DNA of 64,000 bases, from positions 1 to 64,000 of the forward strand of contig JAQGBZ010000030.1 in the NCBI GenBank assembly GCA_034687125.1, in the 5' to 3' direction. The notes beneath the pieces are model-generated. The model saw only the letters and a list, made by a program, of their open reading frames with translations. It had not been told where the DNA came from and ran no database searches. Position 1 is the first letter of the stretch. Each line of letters starts with the position of its first letter. Position numbers and translations under genes: made by a program. Positions 18,309-56,360 of the stretch are shown in pieces. The DNA is from Neelides folsomi. Taxonomy: Eukaryota > Arthropoda > Collembola > Neelipleona > Neelidae.

Positions 18309-19167
18309 ATGATTCGTCGAGTAATATCTTCAATAAAGTTGACTAAAGGAGGAAATGGCTCTGGATTGTCGACAGTCATTTATCAACATCTCAGGATCCC
18401 TGCTCAAAAACTAATACTGACACGACAATTGAGTCTTTTCAAACCTCTTTGTGCTACAGATCCAGCAAAAGTAAAAGAAAAAAATGAAACGGTTAAAATT
18501 ATAGAAGATATTGTTAGCAGCGAAGTTGAAGAAAGTGAGACGAAGATGAATAAAGGTGCCAGAAAAGAAGAACCACTTTCACGAGAAATGAATAAAGATA
18601 GAACTAAAGAGATCTCAGTTGAGACAAGTATGAAATATATGAAAAGTGAAGGTAATTTTCATTACTCGTTAAATAAGCTACAAAACTATAATGACTAAAC
18701 TTTAAAAATTCTCATTTTTATTACTTTTAGCTTACAAATCAACGTATGGCGACAATAATGTTTGGGTTTTGTACAGAAGAAATCACAAGGGCCAAATTCC
18801 ACCAGAGAAAACTAGAAAAGTCTGCATTGTAAGTTTAAATAAAATATTTTAAATATTTAAGTTTGCGCAATTTCAATTAATGGAATTTTATTATTTTCAG
18901 AGAGGAGGAAAAATTTCAACCGGGAGCCCATGTCCAATTTGCCGTGATGAATATTTAGTTCTCCATTATAAAAATGTTGACCTTCTTAAACAGTTCATTT
19001 CTCCTTTCAATGGAGAGACTCTTAGCTATAAGAAAACAAATATTTGTCAAGTGAAGCATTTCCAATTATTAGTAGCAATTGAACAAGCCAAAGATCGCGG
19101 AACCATTACATTCGATATTCCTCATAGAGAATACGATTACTCGGATTATAAAGATTCATATCAATGA
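18309..19167 (+). CDS. MRPS18B: Mitochondrial small ribosomal subunit protein mS40 (MRPS18B)
   Basis: Exons 18309-18651, 18731-18828 and 18901-19167; 235 residues. The first exon encodes a basic, Ser/Arg-rich N-terminus consistent with a mitochondrial presequence, then a charged variable region. The conserved S18-family core starts with WVLYRRNHKGQIPP and continues with KVCIRGG and the Cys pair CPIC. It ends with a helix rich in charged residues and an acidic tail. The core wording and the YRRNHKG..PP element match mS40/MRPS18B rather than the 18A or 18C paralogues. The protein sits in the mitoribosomal small subunit. An acceptor lies one base before the ATG, so the 5' UTR is probably spliced. 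The AATAAA at 19171-19176 comes only four bases after the stop, so the 3' UTR must be very short. Confidence 0.93.
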
Positions 19168-19765
19168 TCCAATAAAAAATGCAATAGTTTATGTAAGTCT
19201 TAAAAGCTTTTTTACTAATTATTTAAAATGATAATAAAAGTTGAAAATATAAAATTCATTTGAAACATTTCATTATCTTATTCATCCTATTTACAACATA
19301 CCAAAGTTGTTTAATTATTATTGCATATTAGATGCATTTATATGCATTTAAATATCAGCAAATTATATAGATTTTTAAAGTTGAATAAAATAATTATAAT
19401 TAAAATAGGTTTCATTCGGTTTTTCATTTTCCGTGCATAGAAGTGAGATATCCTTTTTCATTGGCTAAAGCCTGCTCATTGGAAAGATTGAAATTAAAAA
19501 CCAGTGTGGAGTTGAAGTGTGACGTGTAGATTTTGTAGATTTGCCGCATAACAATACGGCAGATTATTCGGTTATATCTTAATTAAATAAGATATAAAAA
19601 TTTAAACAATAATGACCAATCAATATTTATAAATTACAATATGAAAAGTAACGAGTGAATTAATTAAATACAATCATTTTCATCGAGTAATATCAAATAT
19701 TTATCAAAATACTTTACTACTTTTGACATACAAGTGTTCATTATTTAATACAAAACATCGTTAAA

Positions 19766-21510
19766 ATGGTTGAAAACCCGGATGTAAAAAAGAGAGCAGT
19801 TTTTGAGAAAAAGTCAGATTGGAGGAATTGGATTTATATCACAGCAATCCTCGTCATTTTCATTTGGGCCTTCCAGAGTCAAATCCCTGGAGTTGGGGCC
19901 CATTCCCATGATCATGGACACGCACACGATCATGGAGCTCATGGACATTCACACGACCACGATGACCACGATCATGGTCATGAAGAACCTCCTTCGTTCA
20001 AGTACTCTAAGCAGGCCAACGAAGCTTATGTAAGTTTAAATACTTTAAATTCAACTCATTTATATCAAATCATATTATTATTTAATTTGCAATGTTTTTT
20101 GAGAATTCATCTGATATTTTGAATTTTTATTATTTTAGCAAGGGAGTAGCAAAAGCGAAAAGCCGGTCGACTCCAAACCTAAAGCAAAAGTTAATGAAAA
20201 ACCAATTGAAAGAAATCCGAATTTGTGGTTTGAAGCAATTATGTCAACTTTAGTTATAAGCGCCGCTCCGTTTCTCATTCTCTTCCTCATTCCAATCGAC
20301 AATGCCAGTCAACATAAGACGTCACTTAAAGTTCTCCTCAGCTTTGCATCTGGTGGACTTCTTGGAGATGCATTTCTTCATTTGATTCCTCATGCCATTT
20401 TGGCTAAAGGACCAGATGGACACAGCCACTCTCACTCCCACTCCCATTCTCACGGTGATGGAGAAAAGGGAGAAGAACTTGAGTATCATGGCCATGATCT
20501 TTCGGTTGGCATTTGGGTCCTTGTCGGCATTGTCACTTTCCTTCTTGTGGAAAAAATCATTAGAATAATGAAAAGAGGAAGTCCCCACTCGCATTCACAT
20601 TCGGCTCCATCCACAACCAAAGAATCGGAAGATGAAGGAACCAAAGGAAAAGGGAAAAAGGGAGCCGGAAAGAAAAAAGCTCAGTCCACTGGTTTGTTTA
20701 AATTATTTCACATTAATTATAAAATTGTATTTTTATGCAATAGACAAATTAATTTAACGATAATTATAATTAATCCCTAAACTTATTGTGAACATAACTT
20801 GTCATTTCAGCATTGGCTACAACTAGTGGAGACATCAAAGTTGCTGGTTATCTTAATTTGGCTGCTGATTTCACTCATAATTTTACTGATGGTCTTGCAA
20901 TCGGAGCATCTTATTTAGCTGGACGCACTGTCGGATTAGTGACAACATTTACTGTTTTACTTCATGAGATTCCTCATGAAATTGGAGATTTCGCTATTCT
21001 CATACAATCAGGGTGCAACAAAAGAAAGGTAAAACTTATTCAATATCAAACACAATTTTTATAACTGATAGACACGCTGTATGAATTATAATTATTATAA
21101 ATACGAATTATTTGGAATTGGAAGAGTGAAATTAACTAAAACTTTATTTGTGTTTTCATTAGGCGATGTGCTTGCAACTTATTACGGCTCTTGGCGCTTT
21201 ATCTGGTACCATCGTGTCGCTCATGGCTGAAGGAATTGGTATTAAAAATTGAAAATTAATGTTTGATAAATAAATAACTTAAACCATTCTAAATGTAAGT
21301 TACTCAATATTGGATTTTTATTTTATTTGTATAGGAGATGCCGCAACTGCATGGATTCTTCCATTTACGGCTGGAGGTTTCATATACATTGCGACCGTGT
21401 CTGTGATCCCTGAGCTCCTCCACGATTCAAAGTTTTATGAAAGTGTATTAGAGGTCTTTGCTCTTCTTGCTGGTGTTTACATGATGGTTCTAATAGCCAA
21501 ATATGAGTAA
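19766..21510 (+). CDS. SLC39A7: ZIP7-type zinc transporter (Catsup/SLC39A7)
   Basis: Exons 19766-20029, 20139-20691, 20811-21028, 21163-21238 and 21335-21510; 428 residues. A first hydrophobic segment at about 21-40 is followed by a His/Asp-rich luminal or cytosolic stretch (about 46-72), a second hydrophobic block near 115-160, and a second His-Ser repeat cluster. The signature of the LIV-1 zinc transporters is present: HNFTDG at 295-300 and [10 protein letters not shown] at 324-333, which supply metal ligands. The C-terminus ([17 protein letters not shown]) is typical of ZIP7. The protein should move zinc from the ER/Golgi lumen to the cytosol. The His-to-Glu change that defines LIV-1 members (HEIPHE) is seen, which separates it from other ZIP groups. 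The ATG fits a good Kozak context. An AATAAA overlaps 21520-21525, just after the stop. Confidence 0.95.
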
Positions 21511-21996: not shown

Positions 21997-23406
21997 ATGG
22001 CTACTCCTCTGCCACCCACAATCATCTTCAATAATGGTCAAAAATTCCCGTTGTTTGGTCTCGGTACATGGAAAGTATGTGAAATAAAACAATTTTTGAG
22101 CATTTTATAGATCCAGATTCAACTGTGTTTAATGTTAAATAACGAACGACGACTCCTTTTTAGTCTCAGCCTGGACTTGTCACCCAAGTAGTGAAAGACG
22201 CCATTGATCTTGGATATCGCCATTTTGATTGCGCTGCTGTTTTTCAAAACGAGGTTGAAATTGGAAAAGCCCTCACGGAGAAAATCCAAGAAGGGAAAGT
22301 GACCCGAGATGAACTTTTCGTTTCAAGCAAGGTAAATTGCAAAATAGCAATATCAAGGTTGAATCTTGCATTTAGTTATTCTTAGAACAATTTCGCCCAT
22401 GTTGAATTTGACTAATAAATGAGTAAAATAACGTTTTAGCTATGGAACACATTCCACAGCTATGACCTCGTTCTTCCAGCATTAAAGAAAACCTTGGCGG
22501 AATTAAATCTCCAATACATCGACTTGTATTTGCTTCAATGGCCAATGGGATTTCTAGAAGGAGGCCAAATTTTCCCTAAAGACAAAGATGACAAGCTTCA
22601 ATTCTCCGATGTTGACTACGTCACCACGTGGAAAGCAATGGAAGAATGTGTGAATATGGGACTGGCAAAGTCAATTGGAGTTTCAAACTTCAATAGTGAG
22701 CAGTTGAAGAGAATTCTCAATATATGTAAAATCAAACCAGTCACAAATCAGGTTTGAATGAAAAATATATTCAAATAGCCAATTATATCAAATAAATTAT
22801 GATTTTACAAGTTTATTTCATGACAAAGGTTGAATGTCATCCTTACATGAGTCAAGGCAAAATGATAGCGTTTTGCAAAAAATTCGACATTTTTTTGTCT
22901 GCTGCTTGTCCACTCGGATCTCCCGAAAGGCCATGGTCAACTCCTGAAGAAAAAAAGCTTCTTGATGATCAAAGACTTGTTCAAATTGGGGAAAAATACA
23001 AGAAAACTCCAGCGCAAATTGTTCTTCGTTGGTCGGTAAAGATTGAGAAAATCATACTCGTAAAAACTTATGTCGCGATTTCTGTTATCTATCCAAACTA
23101 TACATACAATATAACAAATATGATGTAAAAATATAAAATAAATGAAGGGAAAAGAACGAATGAAGATAGCATTGGTTTATTGGTATACGAAATTTAATTT
23201 ATTTTGATTTAAAGATTCAGCGAAATGTGATCACAATTCCCAAGTCAATTACAAAGGCAAGGGTCGCGGAGAATTTCAACATTTTTGATTTTGTATTGGA
23301 CGAAGATGACATGCAGGCCATCAACAAGTTTAACGAGGGAGCTCGTGGCATTCATTTATACTGGAACAGGGAACACAAATATTATCCATTTTCAATTGAA
23401 TATTGA
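21997..23406 (+). CDS. Aldo-keto reductase with two altered catalytic residues
   Basis: Exons 21997-22074, 22164-22331, 22440-22751, 22829-23035 and 23215-23406; 318 residues, the usual length for an AKR1-like (beta/alpha)8 barrel. AKR hallmarks are present: [26 protein letters not shown], and the NADP-binding IPKS. Of the catalytic tetrad (Asp, Tyr, Lys, His), Asp48 and Lys82 are kept. The Tyr position is Phe53 (DCAAVF) and the His position is Gln115 (YLLQWP). Hydride transfer normally needs the Tyr acid, so this copy is probably a pseudoenzyme, or has a changed reaction, while the fold and cofactor site look whole. Exons 2-5 have exactly the same lengths as in the next gene, showing tandem duplication. 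The frame is intact throughout, so it is not a decayed pseudogene. A polyadenylation signal lies at 23485-23490. Confidence 0.95.
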
Positions 23407-24610
23407 ATTATTATCATGACTTGAAATGTTAATTTTATATACTTATTTAAATGATTTTCAATGAAGTCATTACATCATTAAATTAATAAAATGCCTATTA
23501 AAGTATTAAAACATTATACAATTTTTATTTGGTTCTCGAATTCCTAAAACATAAAACTCATAAAATTGTTTAAGTTATAGTCTAACCATACGCTAATAAT
23601 AAAGTCACCATCAACATCAACGTGTCATTTTTCTTTTTTCGCAACTGTCTGCTAGCTTAATTCTGATAACCGACAATTACTTATATAAAACGACCAGATA
23701 ATAAATATTTATTTAGTAATTATTGGTGAAGCTCTAAAAAGTCTTTAATAGGATAGCAAATACCAAGCAAATACTTACATACTTGGAGTTGAAGCTCTCA
23801 TTACTCCCTTATATAGTCATATTCGTTAAACATTCTTTTATTGGTAATACTACTTTTAATCTACATGTACGATAAAATCTTATATTTAAGCATGTTATAT
23901 AGCAAGTGAACGTTAAACTCAAGGATAAGCAAAATCCGGGGGTGTCTGGACTGGAGTTATCCATTGTGATTGCGAGTTATTCTTCAGCGAAATATATTCT
24001 GCCTCTGTAACAAAATCCATAGAGAGACACAGCCGAGCAGTTCGACACACCTCCACATTTTGACTGATTAAATTGCTGTTAGATCATTTTTATCTTTAGC
24101 TTTAATCACGTTCTTATAATCCATTTTAAACCAACTATTGCTGGAACTGACTGACATTCAATTTTAGGTACTTTTATAATGGTTTTTTCCTATGGATATT
24201 TTACAGAAATAAAATTTGGTTATATTGGGTTTTGGGTTTGATGGATTTAAAAGTGGAAATTAACTTTTCGATAAGCTTAAGTTTTGATTTAAACCCTCGA
24301 TATGTCGAGATTCGTAAAATTATCATTTGGAATTGTACCAAGTAAATATTTTAATCTTTTCTTTAGATTGTCATACTTTTATATCAATTTTGGTATTAGT
24401 CATTTAAATGATTTAAACCATTTGGTTATCACTCTCTTATTCATTTAAAATTCAACTTCTAACACTTCACATTCTTTTTTTAATTTAATTTCTTTACAGT
24501 AAGTAACATCTATCTACAGTATATTAGTAAAAGTTTATTGAAACTAATTGTTCTATTTATTTAAAAAAAACTATTAGCCAAATACTAAAAAGTTTATATT
24601 TAATTTAGAA
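23407..24610. other. Spacer between the tandem aldo-keto reductases
   Basis: Apart from the candidate unit at 23919-24178, the 1.2 kb between the two reductase copies is AT-rich and holds no supported exon. No third reductase remnant was seen. An acceptor-like sequence ends two bases before the ATG of the second copy, so an untranslated first exon may lie here. Confidence 0.5.
23919..24178 (-). other. Candidate small minus-strand transcription unit
   Basis: On the minus strand a TATAAAAG (24178-24171) is followed about 29 bp downstream by TCAGTCAGT (around 24150). This is the same spacing as at the Kazal gene. Downstream sequence is less AT-rich than its surroundings. It has three short frames: MDYKNVIKA (18 codons), one starting at the next ATG, and one that runs to a stop at 23919 with 33 codons after its internal ATG. 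I recognise no protein family and cannot choose between frames. It could be a small peptide gene, a noncoding RNA or an alternative promoter. Confidence 0.3.
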
Positions 24611-26044
24611 ATGACAACTACAATCACCTTCAACAATGGAGAGAAATTCATTAATTTCGGACTTGGAACTTGGAAGGTAAACTATAAAAATTTATTCAAT
24701 ATACCTTGTAACATATATAAATCTTACGATTTCAGTGTGACAATGATTCTGATTTTTAGTCGAAACCGGGTCAGGTTGAACAAGCAGTGAAAGACGCAAT
24801 TGACATTGGCTATCGTCATATTGATTGTGCTCGTGCTTATGAAAATGAAGCTGAAGTTGGAAAAGCAATCACTGCTAAGATTGCTGAAGGAATTGTTAAA
24901 AGAGAAGATCTCTTCATTACCAGCAAGGTATCATTGTTAACTATTATTGATTTTTTAAGTTTATATTCATTTACAGCATGTAATATTTTTATTTCACTTG
25001 TAATATTATTATACTGATATCTGTACTGATACAGTTATTTTTTCAATTAAACTTAATTTAATGATTCAATTTCAGCTTTGGAACACATTCCACAGCACCG
25101 ACTTGGTCGTACCAGCAATGAAGAAAACACTTGCTGATCTTAATATTGACCAACTTGACTTATACCTCATTCATTGGCCAATGGGATTCAAAGAAGGAGG
25201 AGAACTCTTCCCCAAAGACAGTGAAGGAAAAATGATGTGTTCTGACGTCGACTACCTTGACACTTGGAAGGGAATGGAGGAATGTGTGAAACTTGGATTG
25301 ACAAAATCAATCGGAGTTTCGAACTTCAACAGCGAGCAATTGACTCGTCTTCTTTCTGTTTGCAAAATCAAGCCAGTTACCAACCAGGTTTGTTTAAATC
25401 ATAAGTTAGTACAATATATTGATTTGAAAGATGATAATTTACTATGCAGTATGAATTGTTAACCATGTTAAATGTTAAAACTAAAACTAAATTCAATGTC
25501 AATGATATATTTATTATTTCAATATGATTCAATTCACAGGTCGAGTGTCATCCATATCTTAACCAGACAAAACTCATTGAATTTTGCAAGAACCTTGACA
25601 TTGTGGTGACTGGATACAGTCCACTTGGGTCTCCTGATAGGCCATGGGTTACTGACAAAGATAAAATTCTTATCGATGACCCGAGATTTGTTCCAATTGC
25701 CGAAAAACATAAAAAATCACCGGCACAAATTGCTCTTCGTTGGGCTGTGAGTTAAAAATAAGTTACAAAAGACATTTTTTGAAACCTCCATAAGGAGTAG
25801 TTCAAGTAATGTTATTGAATTTAGTGTGAATAATTGTTTAATGGTTTTTAAGATTCAAAAAGGTGTGATCACGATTCCAAAATCAGTGACGAAAAGCCGA
25901 ATTGCTGAAAATTTCAACATCTTTGATTTTGCATTGGATGCTGCCGACATGGAAGAACTCAATAAATTCGAGGAAGGAGGTCGCGGATGTCATTTGAACT
26001 GGGTCAAGTCACATCCACATTTCCCATTTGCAATTGAATTCTAA
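24611..26044 (+). CDS. Aldo-keto reductase, complete catalytic tetrad
   Basis: Exons 24611-24676, 24760-24927, 25076-25387, 25540-25746 and 25853-26044; 314 residues. The AKR barrel motifs are all visible: [35 protein letters not shown], and IPKS near the C-terminus. The catalytic residues Asp44, Tyr49, Lys78 and His111 are all present, unlike the upstream paralogue. The enzyme should reduce aldehydes or ketones using NADPH in the cytosol. The substrate cannot be read from the sequence. Introns sit at the same places and phases as in the 21997-23406 gene; only the first exon differs in length, by four codons at the N-terminus. The C-terminal tail (HFPFAIEF) is of the type seen in arthropod AKR1-like enzymes. 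Confidence 0.95.
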
Positions 26045-26609
26045 AGATCCTTTTAGAATTTGATATTTACCATTTTACCATTCATTACCAATCATTTATC
26101 ATTTAAATTTTAGCTTTAAGGTGATGGTTCTTGTTCAATTTAATCATTGAAATTCAGAATAAACGATTAAATAATGTTATTGATAAAATGTATTTCCATT
26201 TTCTCACACATCAATTGGAACAATTAAGTATTACCTATAATTAAATAGTAAAATAGCTTATACCATAGTCGTATCTTTTCATGATTATTTAATAAGTTCG
26301 TATGTAAGTTTAATATAATTAATAATTACCTTTATATATTGTAGTAATTCATTACATCAGATCAGTTTTTAAATTGAAATTCTAATCGTATGCAAATTGT
26401 ATTCAATTAATGCAATTTTCTTGTGATCAATAATTAATTTGTTTTTTACCTATATTAAGGTATTTTATCTCACATTGGTGGCATCATATTCCTCATTATC
26501 ATTAACGCTGATGTTGCAATCTTATATCTCAATAGCTTTTATAATAACTCGGTTATTCAGTTCATATTATTCATTCCAATAATTAGAGTTGATTAGAAAA
26601 TATTCTAAA
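26045..26609. other. Intergenic AT-rich spacer
   Basis: This is the 3' region of the second reductase and the upstream region of carboxypeptidase Q. No feature I can support beyond that. Confidence 0.5.
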
Positions 26610-28639
26610 ATGAAAATTCCCATCATTTTACTGTGTTTTGCTATTTTTCATAATTCAAAGTGCGAAATCGTTCCTTTAAAGCATGTAGATTTTGATAATG
26701 AGCCAAAATTTGATCTCCCATTCAATTGCTCTTTAAGTCAAGAAATCATAGACGAAATCGCAAGTTATGAAGAAGTCGCAAATAGAATTATGGACGCCGT
26801 TCTTAATGGTGCTTTCAAGGGAGAAACTTACAAACAACTCCAAATGTTCGTGGATCAATATCCCCATCGGTTGTCCGGGTCAGAACAACTTGAAGACTCA
26901 ATTGATTACTTTTTAGATATTATGACAAAAATCAAGTTGGACAATGTTCGAGGAGAACCAGCACCAGTCCCTAAATGGACAAGGTAATTGAATATTTCAA
27001 AAATAAAACAAAGTGTTTTATACTTATATCCTATAATACATATAAGTACTTTTATACCCAATAAAATATCTCACATTGGTTAAATAAATAAAAAAATTTT
27101 GCAAACAAAGAGGAGAAGAAACTGGAGAGATGATTCTTCCTAGAAGACAGAAAATTCCTATTATGGCATACGGAATGTCTATTGGAACTCCGGAAGAAGG
27201 AATTACTGCAGATGTGATTGTAGTGAAAAATTTTGAAGAATTGCTTGATAAAGCAGAAGAGGTTTTACATAGTTTTGATAACAAAACTTACTAATATATT
27301 AATTTTAATAAAAAATCGAAATGATTCATTATAAAGCAAAGTGCTTAACTAACTAATATAATAAATTCAATTTAGGCAAAAGATAAAATCGTAATTTATA
27401 ATCAAGACTATTTCGGCTACGGTGCATCAAATCAATATCGTGGCTATGGAGCAACTGAAGCCGCTAAAGTTGGAGCCGTCGCTGCACTTGTTCGTTCAAT
27501 TACTCCCTTCTCCCTTTACACCCTTCATACTGGATATACAGTTTACGGGAATGAATCTCTTAAAATACCTTGTGGAGCTATTACAGTGGAAGATGCTGAA
27601 CTTTTATATAGAATTTATAACCGAGGTTTGTGTTAAAGTTAAATATCTGCATCAACCGTTGAAACTAACAATTAAAATTATAGAGAATTGAAATTTTAAT
27701 AATTTTAATATTAAAGGCGAGCGGATTCAAATGAAAATTACAATGGGAGCTCAACTTCATGAACCATCAATTTCTAGAAATGCCATTGGTGATTTCATAG
27801 GAGATGAAAAGCCAGATGAGTTTGTCATTGTGTCAGGGCATATTGACAATTGGGATATTGGGTGAGAAATTGGCACTGGATTAAAATTGGCACTTTTTGC
27901 AAGTTTATTTCTTTTCTTTTAATTTCTTTTAATTTCCAGAACTGGTCCTTTGGATGATGCTGGAGGTGTTTTCATCTCATATGAAGCCGTTGCTCTTCTA
28001 AAAGCTTTAGGTCTAAGGCCCAAAAGAACACTTCAAGTTATTGGTTGGACAGTTGAAGAGTAAGATAATTTTAATTTATAGTTCTTATACATTTATTGAA
28101 TTATTATAATTTATTTAGAATTATTGTATAATTGTTTACACTTTAAATTATTTGTTGATTTTAACAGGTTTGGTCTTTATGGTGCAAAACAACATAGAGA
28201 AGATCATTTGGACGAATATAGCAAAATTGTAGCTGCTTTTAATTCCGACGTTGGGACTTTTAAACCTACTGGATTGGATTTTGCTGGATCTGATGAAGCT
28301 GCTTGCATTGTTGAACAAATCCTCACATTATTAGAGCCTTTGAATGCAACGATGTTTAGGAAGTTTCCCATTGTAGGAACGGACATTTGGTACATGTTAG
28401 AAACCGGAGTTCCTGGAGTGAGTTTGAATACGACAGAAACGGAACCTCCAACTTTTATCCCAACAAATCCACCATTTTCAAGAATTCCCAATTACGATTC
28501 TTATAAATTCTTTTGGTATCATCATTCTGGTGCTGACACAATGACGATGATGAATTCAAGAGATCTGGATTTATGCACAGCAGTTTGGGCGGTTGCTTCT
28601 TATGTAATTGCTGACATGAAAGAAGCTTTGCCACGTTAA
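26610..28639 (+). CDS. CPQ: Carboxypeptidase Q (secreted M28 metallopeptidase)
   Basis: Exons 26610-26983, 27111-27261, 27376-27625, 27717-27861, 27940-28059 and 28168-28639; 503 residues. Residues 1-19 are a signal peptide ending near NSKCE. The N-terminal region carries QYPHRLSGSEQ, typical of CPQ. A protease-associated insert with YGYGASNQYRGYGA-type sequence follows. The dizinc site of family M28 is complete in order: His in SGHID, Asp in LDDAGG, the Glu pair in WTVEE, Asp in NSDVGT, and His in HHSGADT. The C-terminal AVWAVASYVIADM matches CPQ/PGCP. CPQ removes unsubstituted amino acids from dipeptides in lysosomes or outside the cell. The ATG at 26610 is chosen because it starts the signal peptide. 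A polyadenylation signal is at 28695-28700. Confidence 0.95.
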
Positions 28640-53361: not shown

Positions 53362-56360
53362 ATGGCAGAAAACGAAATTATCATCCAAGAATCCTCCACA
53401 GTATCTGCTGCGGTCAAAGTGAGAAAAAATAGTCATCGTCAAAATGCAGTCATCCAGCCACTTCTCACAGGTAAACCTATCCAAATTATTATTTATAGCG
53501 ATTTTACAAAAAAGATTTTACATAAGTTAAAAGTTTGCTATATTGAAAGGTTAGCTCATCATTTTATGATTAGGTTTTAGATACCCAACTCCTTCAAATT
53601 GACGTGTTTATTTGTTATGCTAATAAACATTTGGTGGGACAATTGGAGTTGGCACGAAAGATCTCCGAACCATTAATTTATAAAATGGAGAGTTTGTTTA
53701 GAAAAAGAAAATCGATTTTAATATAGATATAATAAATCATACTGACTTAATATATTTATTCATTATCACTTGTTAGACAATATAAAATGCGTACATGTAT
53801 AGTCTTAATATTTTATACAATATATGGAATTAACATCGTAAATTCATTTTCTTAGAAAGAGTTTTAGAATTTAATAGCTCATTCATTATTGATTTTATTT
53901 TTTAATTTATTTTTGATTTTTCTTTTTAGATTTGTATCAAATCACAATGGCCTACGCCTACTGGAGGTCTCGTAAAACTGAAGATTGGGCTGTCTTCGAT
54001 CTCTTCTTTAGAAAGAATCCGTTCCATGGGGAATTCACCATATTTGCCGGGCTTGATGAATGCCTTAAATTTCTTGAGAATTTTCACTACTCAGCGAGTG
54101 GTAAAATCTCATTACTCATTACCATAATTAAGAAGGAAAAATTAATTATTGTAACAAGTAATTGAGCAAATGGTTCAATTTTAGATATCGAGTATTTGAG
54201 AGAAACTCTACCAACAGTCGAGCCAGATTTTTTTAATTTCTTGGGTGATCTGACAGCTGATGGAATAACGGTCAATGCGATTCCTGAAGGATCCATTGTT
54301 TTTCCTCGAGTTCCTATTATGAGAATTGAAGGACCGTTGATTGTAGCTCAGCTATTGGAAACAACGCTTTTGACCCTTGTTAATTACGCGAGTCTTGTGG
54401 CGACCAACGCTGCAAGATATAGGCTTGCTGCTGGACCCAACGTTACACTTTTAGAGTTTGGTTTAAGGAGAGCACAGGGACCTGATGGTGGACTTTCGGC
54501 TTCAAAATATGCTTATTTGGGTAAATTGCGAATTATAATTTATTATAATTTATAGTTGAAACATGGTTAATCTAATACTACTTTAAATGTTTACTCTAAA
54601 TTAACATTTTATTAAAAAATATTAGGTGGATTTGATGGAACGAGTAATGTTTTGGCTGGTAAGCTGTACAACATTCCGGTCAAAGGAACTCATGCACATG
54701 CATACATTTCAAGCTTCACTGATTGCAAGGAACTAAAATTAAGAGTAATTTCAAGATTTGAATATTCAAAATATTCAGAATATAAATTATACAATATATA
54801 CAATACCTACTATATATTTAATGTATTGTATTAATATATTATTTATTTTTCTTCTAATTAGACTCTTAAGCACAAAGATACAAATGAAGAAAAGGATTTC
54901 ATTGCAATGTGCGCAGAGCGAAAAAATGAATTGACACCTGTTTTAAATCTTCTTCAAGAAGAATCTTCAGATGGGGAACTTGCAGCGTTTGCTTCTTACG
55001 CTATTGCATTCCCAGATGCCTTCATTGCGCTGGTGGACACGTACGATACCGTGAGGTAGAGATTAGTGTGCTACCCTCGCTAATCCCATTCCTCAACCTA
55101 TATTTCATTTTTTAAACAAACAATTATCCTTTTATTCATTTTTATTGATTAGTTAGCTTAGCTATTTTGATTATTTTTTTTTAAATTTCAAAGCACCAAA
55201 TTGCACCTTATACAATATTAACTATATTACTAATATTTAAGTAATGTATAGTTAGTGTAATATTGGTTCCAAATCTTGTTTCATTTTTAATGGATTAACA
55301 TTTTATAGGAGCGGACTTTTGAATTTCTGTGCTGTTGCAATGGCTCTCAACGATATGGGATATTTACCGAAGGGAATACGAATCGATAGTGGAGATTTGG
55401 CTTATTTGTCTACATTGGCAAGAGAGATTTTTGAAAGAGTTGCTGAAAAGTAAATTGAAGATCATTTTAATTTTAATGCATATACTACATTTATTATATT
55501 TTTTAAAACTTTATTTAATGATATATTATTTATTTTATATTAGATATTCATTGGAGTGGTTCCGTACTTTGACAATTGTTGCATCAAATGATATCAATGA
55601 AGAAACAATTTGGTCATTGAATGAACAAGGACATCAAATTAATTGTTTCGGAATCGGAACTCATTTGGTGACTTGTCAACGTCAGCCAGCTCTTGGCTGC
55701 GTTTACAAACTTGTTGAAATTAATTCAATTCCAAAGATCAAACTAAGCGAGGATGTTGAGAAAGTGACAATGCCAGGGAGAAAGGACGTTTACAGGTAAA
55801 TATTTAAATATCCACCTTGAAGAAAAATTTAAACTAGTTTTAAGAGGGATAATATCCTATATTTAATTAATAAATAATTATTTTATTCAGATTGTATGGA
55901 GCTGATGGTCATGCATTAATTGACCTTCTTGTACAAACTGGAGAACAAGCACCAGAAGCAAAAAATAAAGTTCTTTGTCGTCACCCGTTTCATGAATCTA
56001 AGCGTGCTTGGGTGAATCCAGCTAAAGTTGAACCACTTTACAAAGTATTTTGGAAGGATGGGCAAATCTGCCAAGAACTTCCCAATTTACAAGAAATAAG
56101 ACAACGAGTGAAGGAATCGATGATTACGTTGAGACAAGACCATAAAAGAAATTTGAACCCAACACCGTATAAAGTATTATTTCACATTTATATTAATCCA
56201 ATATTGGATTAAACAAATTACAGATGTTTTTGCATTTTATGACGCCATTGATAAAAGTAAAAAATATATTTAATTATTTCAGGTAGCTGTGAGTGACGCT
56301 TTATATCATTTCATTCATGACCTTTGGCTCGAAAACGCTCCGATTGGGCAGCTCTCTTGA
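53362..56360 (+). CDS. NAPRT: Nicotinate phosphoribosyltransferase
   Basis: Exons 53362-53470, 53930-54100, 54185-54520, 54626-54744, 54862-55055, 55309-55449, 55544-55795, 55891-56173 and 56283-56360; 560 residues against about 538 in human. NAPRT motifs run in order: [44 protein letters not shown] (nicotinate and phosphate site), [27 protein letters not shown] (phosphoribosyl site), ASNDINEE, and FGIGTHLVT. The enzyme converts nicotinate and PRPP to nicotinate mononucleotide, the first step of the Preiss-Handler route to NAD, in the cytosol. The ATG at 53362 is the first in frame after the acceptor. About 37 variable residues precede the conserved DLYQ. The C-terminus ([12 protein letters not shown]) is also conserved. 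Confidence 0.97.

Follow-up and report, generated by a model that had tools for sequence, protein, structure and literature searches.

An aldose reductase-like gene of the collembolan Neelides folsomi in which the tyrosine and histidine of the catalytic tetrad are replaced

In the Asp-Tyr-Lys-His (D-Y-K-H) tetrad of the human aldose reductase AKR1B1, a member of the aldo-keto reductase (AKR) superfamily, Tyr48 is the general acid. An AKR-like protein without reductase activity is also known, namely the glutamate-cysteine ligase modifier (GCLM), which is distant from the gene described here. The tyrosine of AKRs serves as the acid/base catalyst; its relay partner is His when the enzyme reduces, and Lys and Asp take this part when it oxidises (PMC8524200). 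Catalysis by AKR1B1 is reported to require Y48, K77 and H110 (PMC6372189). In the former source, codeinone reductase mutants of Asp, Lys or His showed undetectable oxidation and only traces of reduction; Tyr is not among these mutants.

Two natural AKRs with changed tetrads are described as active. The DRR domain of poppy REPI, in which His is replaced by Pro and Lys by Met with Asp and Tyr kept, reduces a C=N bond (PMC8524200), and AKR1D1, in which His is replaced by Glu and Tyr is kept, reduces a C=C bond (PMC10813097). The gene reported here resembles both in being a natural AKR with a changed tetrad; however, it combines Phe at the Tyr position and Gln at the His position with a retained Lys, and thus fits neither the AKR1D1-type nor the DRR-type pattern. 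A further point of comparison is provided by the Kv-beta subunits (AKR6), AKR proteins that bind pyridine nucleotides as part of their regulatory role, but these have the catalytic Tyr and a slow activity (PMC9317154), whereas the best solved relatives of our gene are aldose reductases. In the titles and abstract beginnings listed for our searches of the open-licence literature, no AKR with Phe and Gln at these tetrad positions was described. In this paper, we report the analysis of this gene (gene A) and of its downstream neighbour (gene B) in a stretch of 64,000 nucleotides of the Neelides folsomi genome (contig JAQGBZ010000030.1, positions 1 to 64,000), hereafter the window.

Gene structure and catalytic tetrad

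Gene A occupies positions 21997-23406 of the forward strand in five exons and encodes 318 amino acids with no internal stop. Its four introns are all GT-AG and all in phase 0, and their positions are the same as those of gene B. The features of the two genes are as follows.

21997-22074, forward strand: gene A exon 1, with the start codon and the motif GLGTWKS, in which AKR1B1 Trp20 is kept
22164-22331, forward strand: gene A exon 2, holding Asp48, Phe53 (for Tyr) and Lys82
22227-22229, forward strand: gene A Asp48 codon GAT, kept
22242-22244, forward strand: gene A Phe53 codon TTT, replacing AKR1B1 Tyr48, the general acid; gene B Tyr49 is TAT
22329-22331, forward strand: gene A Lys82 codon AAG, kept
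22440-22751, forward strand: gene A exon 3, holding Gln115; Ser164, Asn165 and Gln186 kept
22536-22538, forward strand: gene A Gln115 codon CAA, replacing AKR1B1 His110; gene B His111 is CAT
22829-23035, forward strand: gene A exon 4, holding Ala212-Cys213
22904-22909, forward strand: gene A Ala212-Cys213 codons GCT TGT, AKR1B1 Tyr209-Ser210 lost; gene B has TAC AGT
23215-23406, forward strand: gene A exon 5 and stop, with a 13-residue stretch in which Lys265, Ser266, Arg271, Glu274 and Asn275 are kept
23485-23490, forward strand: candidate polyadenylation signal AATAAA of gene A, as a motif only
24611-26044, forward strand: gene B, exons 24611-24676, 24760-24927, 25076-25387, 25540-25746 and 25853-26044; 314 amino acids, tetrad intact

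Gene A matched the Pfam profile Aldo_ket_red (PF00248) with an E value of 3e-48 over residues 22-295 and profile positions 4-290 of 291, and by this family profile it is a member of the aldo-keto reductase superfamily; gene B matched the same profile with an E value of 5.5e-56. Among the best 60 of 161 matches in a PDB sequence search with gene A, aldose reductase AKR1B1 came first (2pdx_A, E 2.5e-105), followed by AKR1B10, and 158 of 310 aligned residues are alike between gene A and human AKR1B1. With AKR1B as the closest characterised relative by this search and by identity to AKR1B1, gene A appears to be of the AKR1B type (aldose reductase-like). It is not classed as a catalytic aldose reductase since its tetrad is incomplete, reading Asp48, Phe53, Lys82 and Gln115 against Asp44, Tyr49, Lys78 and His111 in gene B. 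The original prediction that Phe and Gln stand where the neighbour has Tyr and His, that Asp and Lys are retained and that neither the frame nor any splice site is broken agrees in full with the codons and the gene model given above.

In a six-sequence MAFFT alignment, the two genes have the same residue at 206 of 314 aligned positions (208 with a pairwise aligner). Only 28 of 71 fourfold sites are identical and the introns are not alignable, with common matches of 7 to 10 bases only, which together argue that the duplication is old; gene A would thus descend from an ancient tandem duplication of an aldose reductase-like gene. This divergence also bears on a sequencing or assembly error at the Phe53 and Gln115 codons. 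Both codons do differ from those of gene B by single bases, as such an error would have it, but gene A diverges from gene B throughout, its frame and splice sites are clean, and Ala212, where a third residue was lost, takes a minimum of two substitutions to arise, so that we hold an error to be extremely improbable.

Several other coding stretches were noted in the window. Upstream of gene A and on the same strand are exons of a ZIP zinc transporter with His-rich stretches (19727-20780; PF02535 for 20139-20777), preceded by an exon of the ribosomal protein S18 family (18853-19167; PF01084). Downstream of gene B lies a Peptidase M28 family exon (28100-28636; PF04389); the reading frame at 26583-26984 had no Pfam match. 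An exon for the N-terminal domain of nicotinate phosphoribosyltransferase (PF17767) was found at 54166-54552.

Tetrad conservation in paralogues and bacterial relatives

In the 75.1 Mb genome of the same species, three further AKR1-type paralogues (C250, C178 and C33) were modelled over most of their length; all three models end before the C-terminus and that of C33 is without the N-terminal part. Left out of the paralogue counts were C91 (L054) and C13 (L055), which are weak AKR matches consisting of fragments only, and C10 (L053), which has a Pfam match but no model and whose reading frames resemble another AKR type. C91 (L054 1815-2027, reverse strand) consists of one exon that matches the AKR family only weakly (E 6.7e-08); it resembles GCLM and may be the copy of that gene in this genome.

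The tetrad is intact in gene B, C250, C178, C33 and human AKR1B1 in the six-sequence alignment. As a bacterial control, prokaryotic contigs were scanned with peptide patterns holding no tetrad position. At least 590 stretches were matched, at least 558 of which encode a relative, and the best 80 of these were analysed. D-Y-K-H was present in 80/80 of these best-ranking sequences, which are those closest to gene B and thus favour canonical members.

When a column was called near-invariant if 95% or more of the remaining 85 sequences shared its residue, gene A was found to break 2 of 43, exactly those of Tyr48 and His110. Leaving out each comparison protein in the same manner gave breaks at 1/43 columns for gene B, 3/43 for C250, 4/43 for C178, 5/40 for C33 and 1/44 for AKR1B1, none of them in the tetrad; these 14 breaks in sum come from each protein's own set of 40 to 44 columns and some are common to paralogues. 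The probability that both breaks of gene A fall in the four tetrad columns of the 43 is P=0.0066, as tested post hoc. In the six-sequence comparison, gene A breaks 6/66 invariant columns, three of which (48, 110 and 209) are in the nicotinamide pocket (P 0.02), whereas the other five sequences break 3/63, 2/62, 5/65, 9/69 and 6/66 columns, with none at the nine positions assigned to this pocket. As judged from these alignments, the tetrad loss in gene A appears to be more than chance.

The tetrad is thus constant among the best 80 of the bacterial relatives, and the two natural variants described above keep Tyr. If gene A is retained without the Tyr, the His and the stacking ring of the cofactor site, next to an intact sister, the two genes would form a clean natural pair for a binding-only AKR fold.

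Cofactor site, substrate pocket and predicted function

The third loss in gene A concerns position 209, whose aromatic residue stacks on the nicotinamide. An aromatic residue occupies this position in 80/80 bacterial relatives (W 72, Y 5, F 3; best 80 of at least 558), and it is Tyr in gene B, C250, C178 and C33. In gene A it is Ala212, and AKR1B1 Tyr48, His110, Tyr209 and Ser210 therefore correspond to Phe, Gln, Ala and Cys. The opposite holds at the clamp for the 2'-phosphate, formed in AKR1B1 by Lys262, Ser263, Arg268 and Asn272, of which gene A keeps 4/4. At this adenosine-phosphate end, gene A retains Lys265, Ser266, Arg271, Glu274 and Asn275. Intact cofactor motifs had been predicted for gene A; this stands for the 2'-phosphate clamp and fails at Tyr209 and Ser210. 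With the latter two residues changed, ordinary NADPH hydride transfer becomes less likely, and the proposal of an NADP(H)-binding pseudoenzyme is weakened to that of a ligand-binding pseudoenzyme with NADP(H) as a possible ligand. A different substitution in the clamp was seen in the C33 paralogue (L052, reverse strand; C33:221500-226000), which keeps the Tyr and the His and has Asn at the position of Arg268; its NADP preference may differ, given this Asn.

Contacts were counted against lists of 25 cofactor/tetrad positions and 10 substrate-pocket residues of AKR1B1. Gene A matched 19/25 of the former, against 25/25 for gene B and 17/25 each for C250 and C178; as these last two keep the tetrad, the total of 19/25 says little by itself, and gene A is special for which residues were lost rather than for its total contact score. 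Between genes A and B, changes numbered 6 v 0 inside the contact set and 31 v 21 outside it, which is marginal (P=0.057). The aromatic substrate pocket is close to that of AKR1B1, with 8/10 residues matched in gene A, 9/10 in gene B and 3/10 in each of C250 and C178, and the two missed by gene A are exactly Tyr48 and His110.

Now that the acid, the stacking ring and His are all gone, standard carbonyl reduction is unlikely, and the retention of the frame, the conserved columns and the pocket makes a binding protein the simplest account. On balance we favour the interpretation that gene A encodes an AKR1B-type protein that is kept by selection, with its carbonyl reductase chemistry dismantled, and that acts by ligand binding. 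The sequence itself shows an intact gene that no longer has Tyr as general acid, His, or an aromatic residue at position 209, and in which Asp and Lys, the clamp for the 2'-phosphate and the aromatic pocket stay in place. The protein would be unable to protonate a carbonyl at the normal rate, would use the retained pocket to hold a ligand of aromatic or hydrophobic character, perhaps with NADP(H) gripped by the adenosine-phosphate end, and would serve for sensing, for buffering or as the partner of another protein instead of as an enzyme. Loss of the standard AKR chemistry, as first suggested, is supported by the three missing residues; the NADP(H)-binding role proposed with it has been downgraded. 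It is a tentative extension of this interpretation that selection acted on just these three sites, taking away the general acid, His and the ring that stacks on the nicotinamide and sparing the pocket, so that an aldose reductase became a protein devoted to ligand binding or sensing in an arthropod lineage.

Alternatively, and as the chief rival to this interpretation, gene A may still be an enzyme with altered chemistry, either by hydride transfer that needs no Tyr acid (e.g. where the substrate is an iminium or carries an activated double bond) or by another reaction of Asp and Lys. Its retained Asp48, Lys82 and substrate pocket are in keeping with this, as is the loss of tetrad residues in the active DRR domain and AKR1D1 (PMC8524200, PMC10813097), but both keep the very Tyr that gene A has lost. 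Productive hydride geometry is also doubtful given that the aromatic residue present in 80/80 bacterial relatives (best 80 of at least 558) is gone, and we consider an altered enzyme unlikely, though worth weighing.

Selection on gene A

The retention of gene A by selection was examined with branch codon models. Without a clock, omega was 0.124 for gene A and 0.072 for gene B, and omega_A=1 was weakly rejected (2dlnL 4.48, p=0.034), with saturated outgroups; the rejection is weak because this model can shift synonymous change onto gene B. In a dS-clock model, which gives genes A and B equal synonymous time on the assumption of a single duplication, the values were 0.10 and 0.08, and setting omega_A=1 cost 54 log units (2dlnL 108). 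The earlier suggestion that selection keeps gene A is thus well supported under a shared clock and weakly without one. No difference between omega_A and omega_B was found in either model (p 0.55 without and 0.52 with the clock), hence there is no sign of altered constraint on gene A as a whole. In Tajima relative-rate tests, gene A was faster only against AKR1B1 (37 v 21, P=0.036), and no faster against C250 (24 v 18) or C178 (19 v 23).

The overall constraint on gene A could come mostly from an earlier enzyme phase. Another reading is that gene A is a recent pseudogene, i.e. an enzyme that worked for most of its history and is now decaying, and that chance hit its catalytic residues before a first stop or frameshift arose. 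In a late-neutral model, in which the end of the gene A branch is neutral and the remainder evolves at the omega of gene B, the best neutral fraction on the grid was 0.01 with an interpolated 95% limit of about 0.07, so that the likelihood tolerates a short neutral phase covering as much as about 7% of the branch; TTT and CAA are, moreover, each one base from the TAT and CAT of gene B. Against decay, the frame is unbroken and every splice site is preserved, and 41 of the 43 near-invariant columns are kept, both of the broken ones being catalytic. The codon of Ala212 (GCT) differs from TAC of gene B at 3/3 bases, and no route from Tyr to Ala is shorter than two substitutions. Neutral decay was also simulated from gene B at six distances (0.01-0.30 substitutions per site; 200,000 runs each), and the combination of no stop, both Tyr and His changed and the other 41 columns intact arose in at most 15 of 200,000 runs (7.5e-05) at any of the six. 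We therefore judge a recent pseudogene to be improbable.

Some further families were noted in the same genome. A search for intradiol dioxygenase (PF00775) gave no match, and 39 matches to cuticle protein (PF00379) were obtained, in line with an arthropod genome. C1 peptidases gave at least 79 exon-level matches on many contigs, with several exons per gene, which suggests that this family may be expanded in this arthropod.
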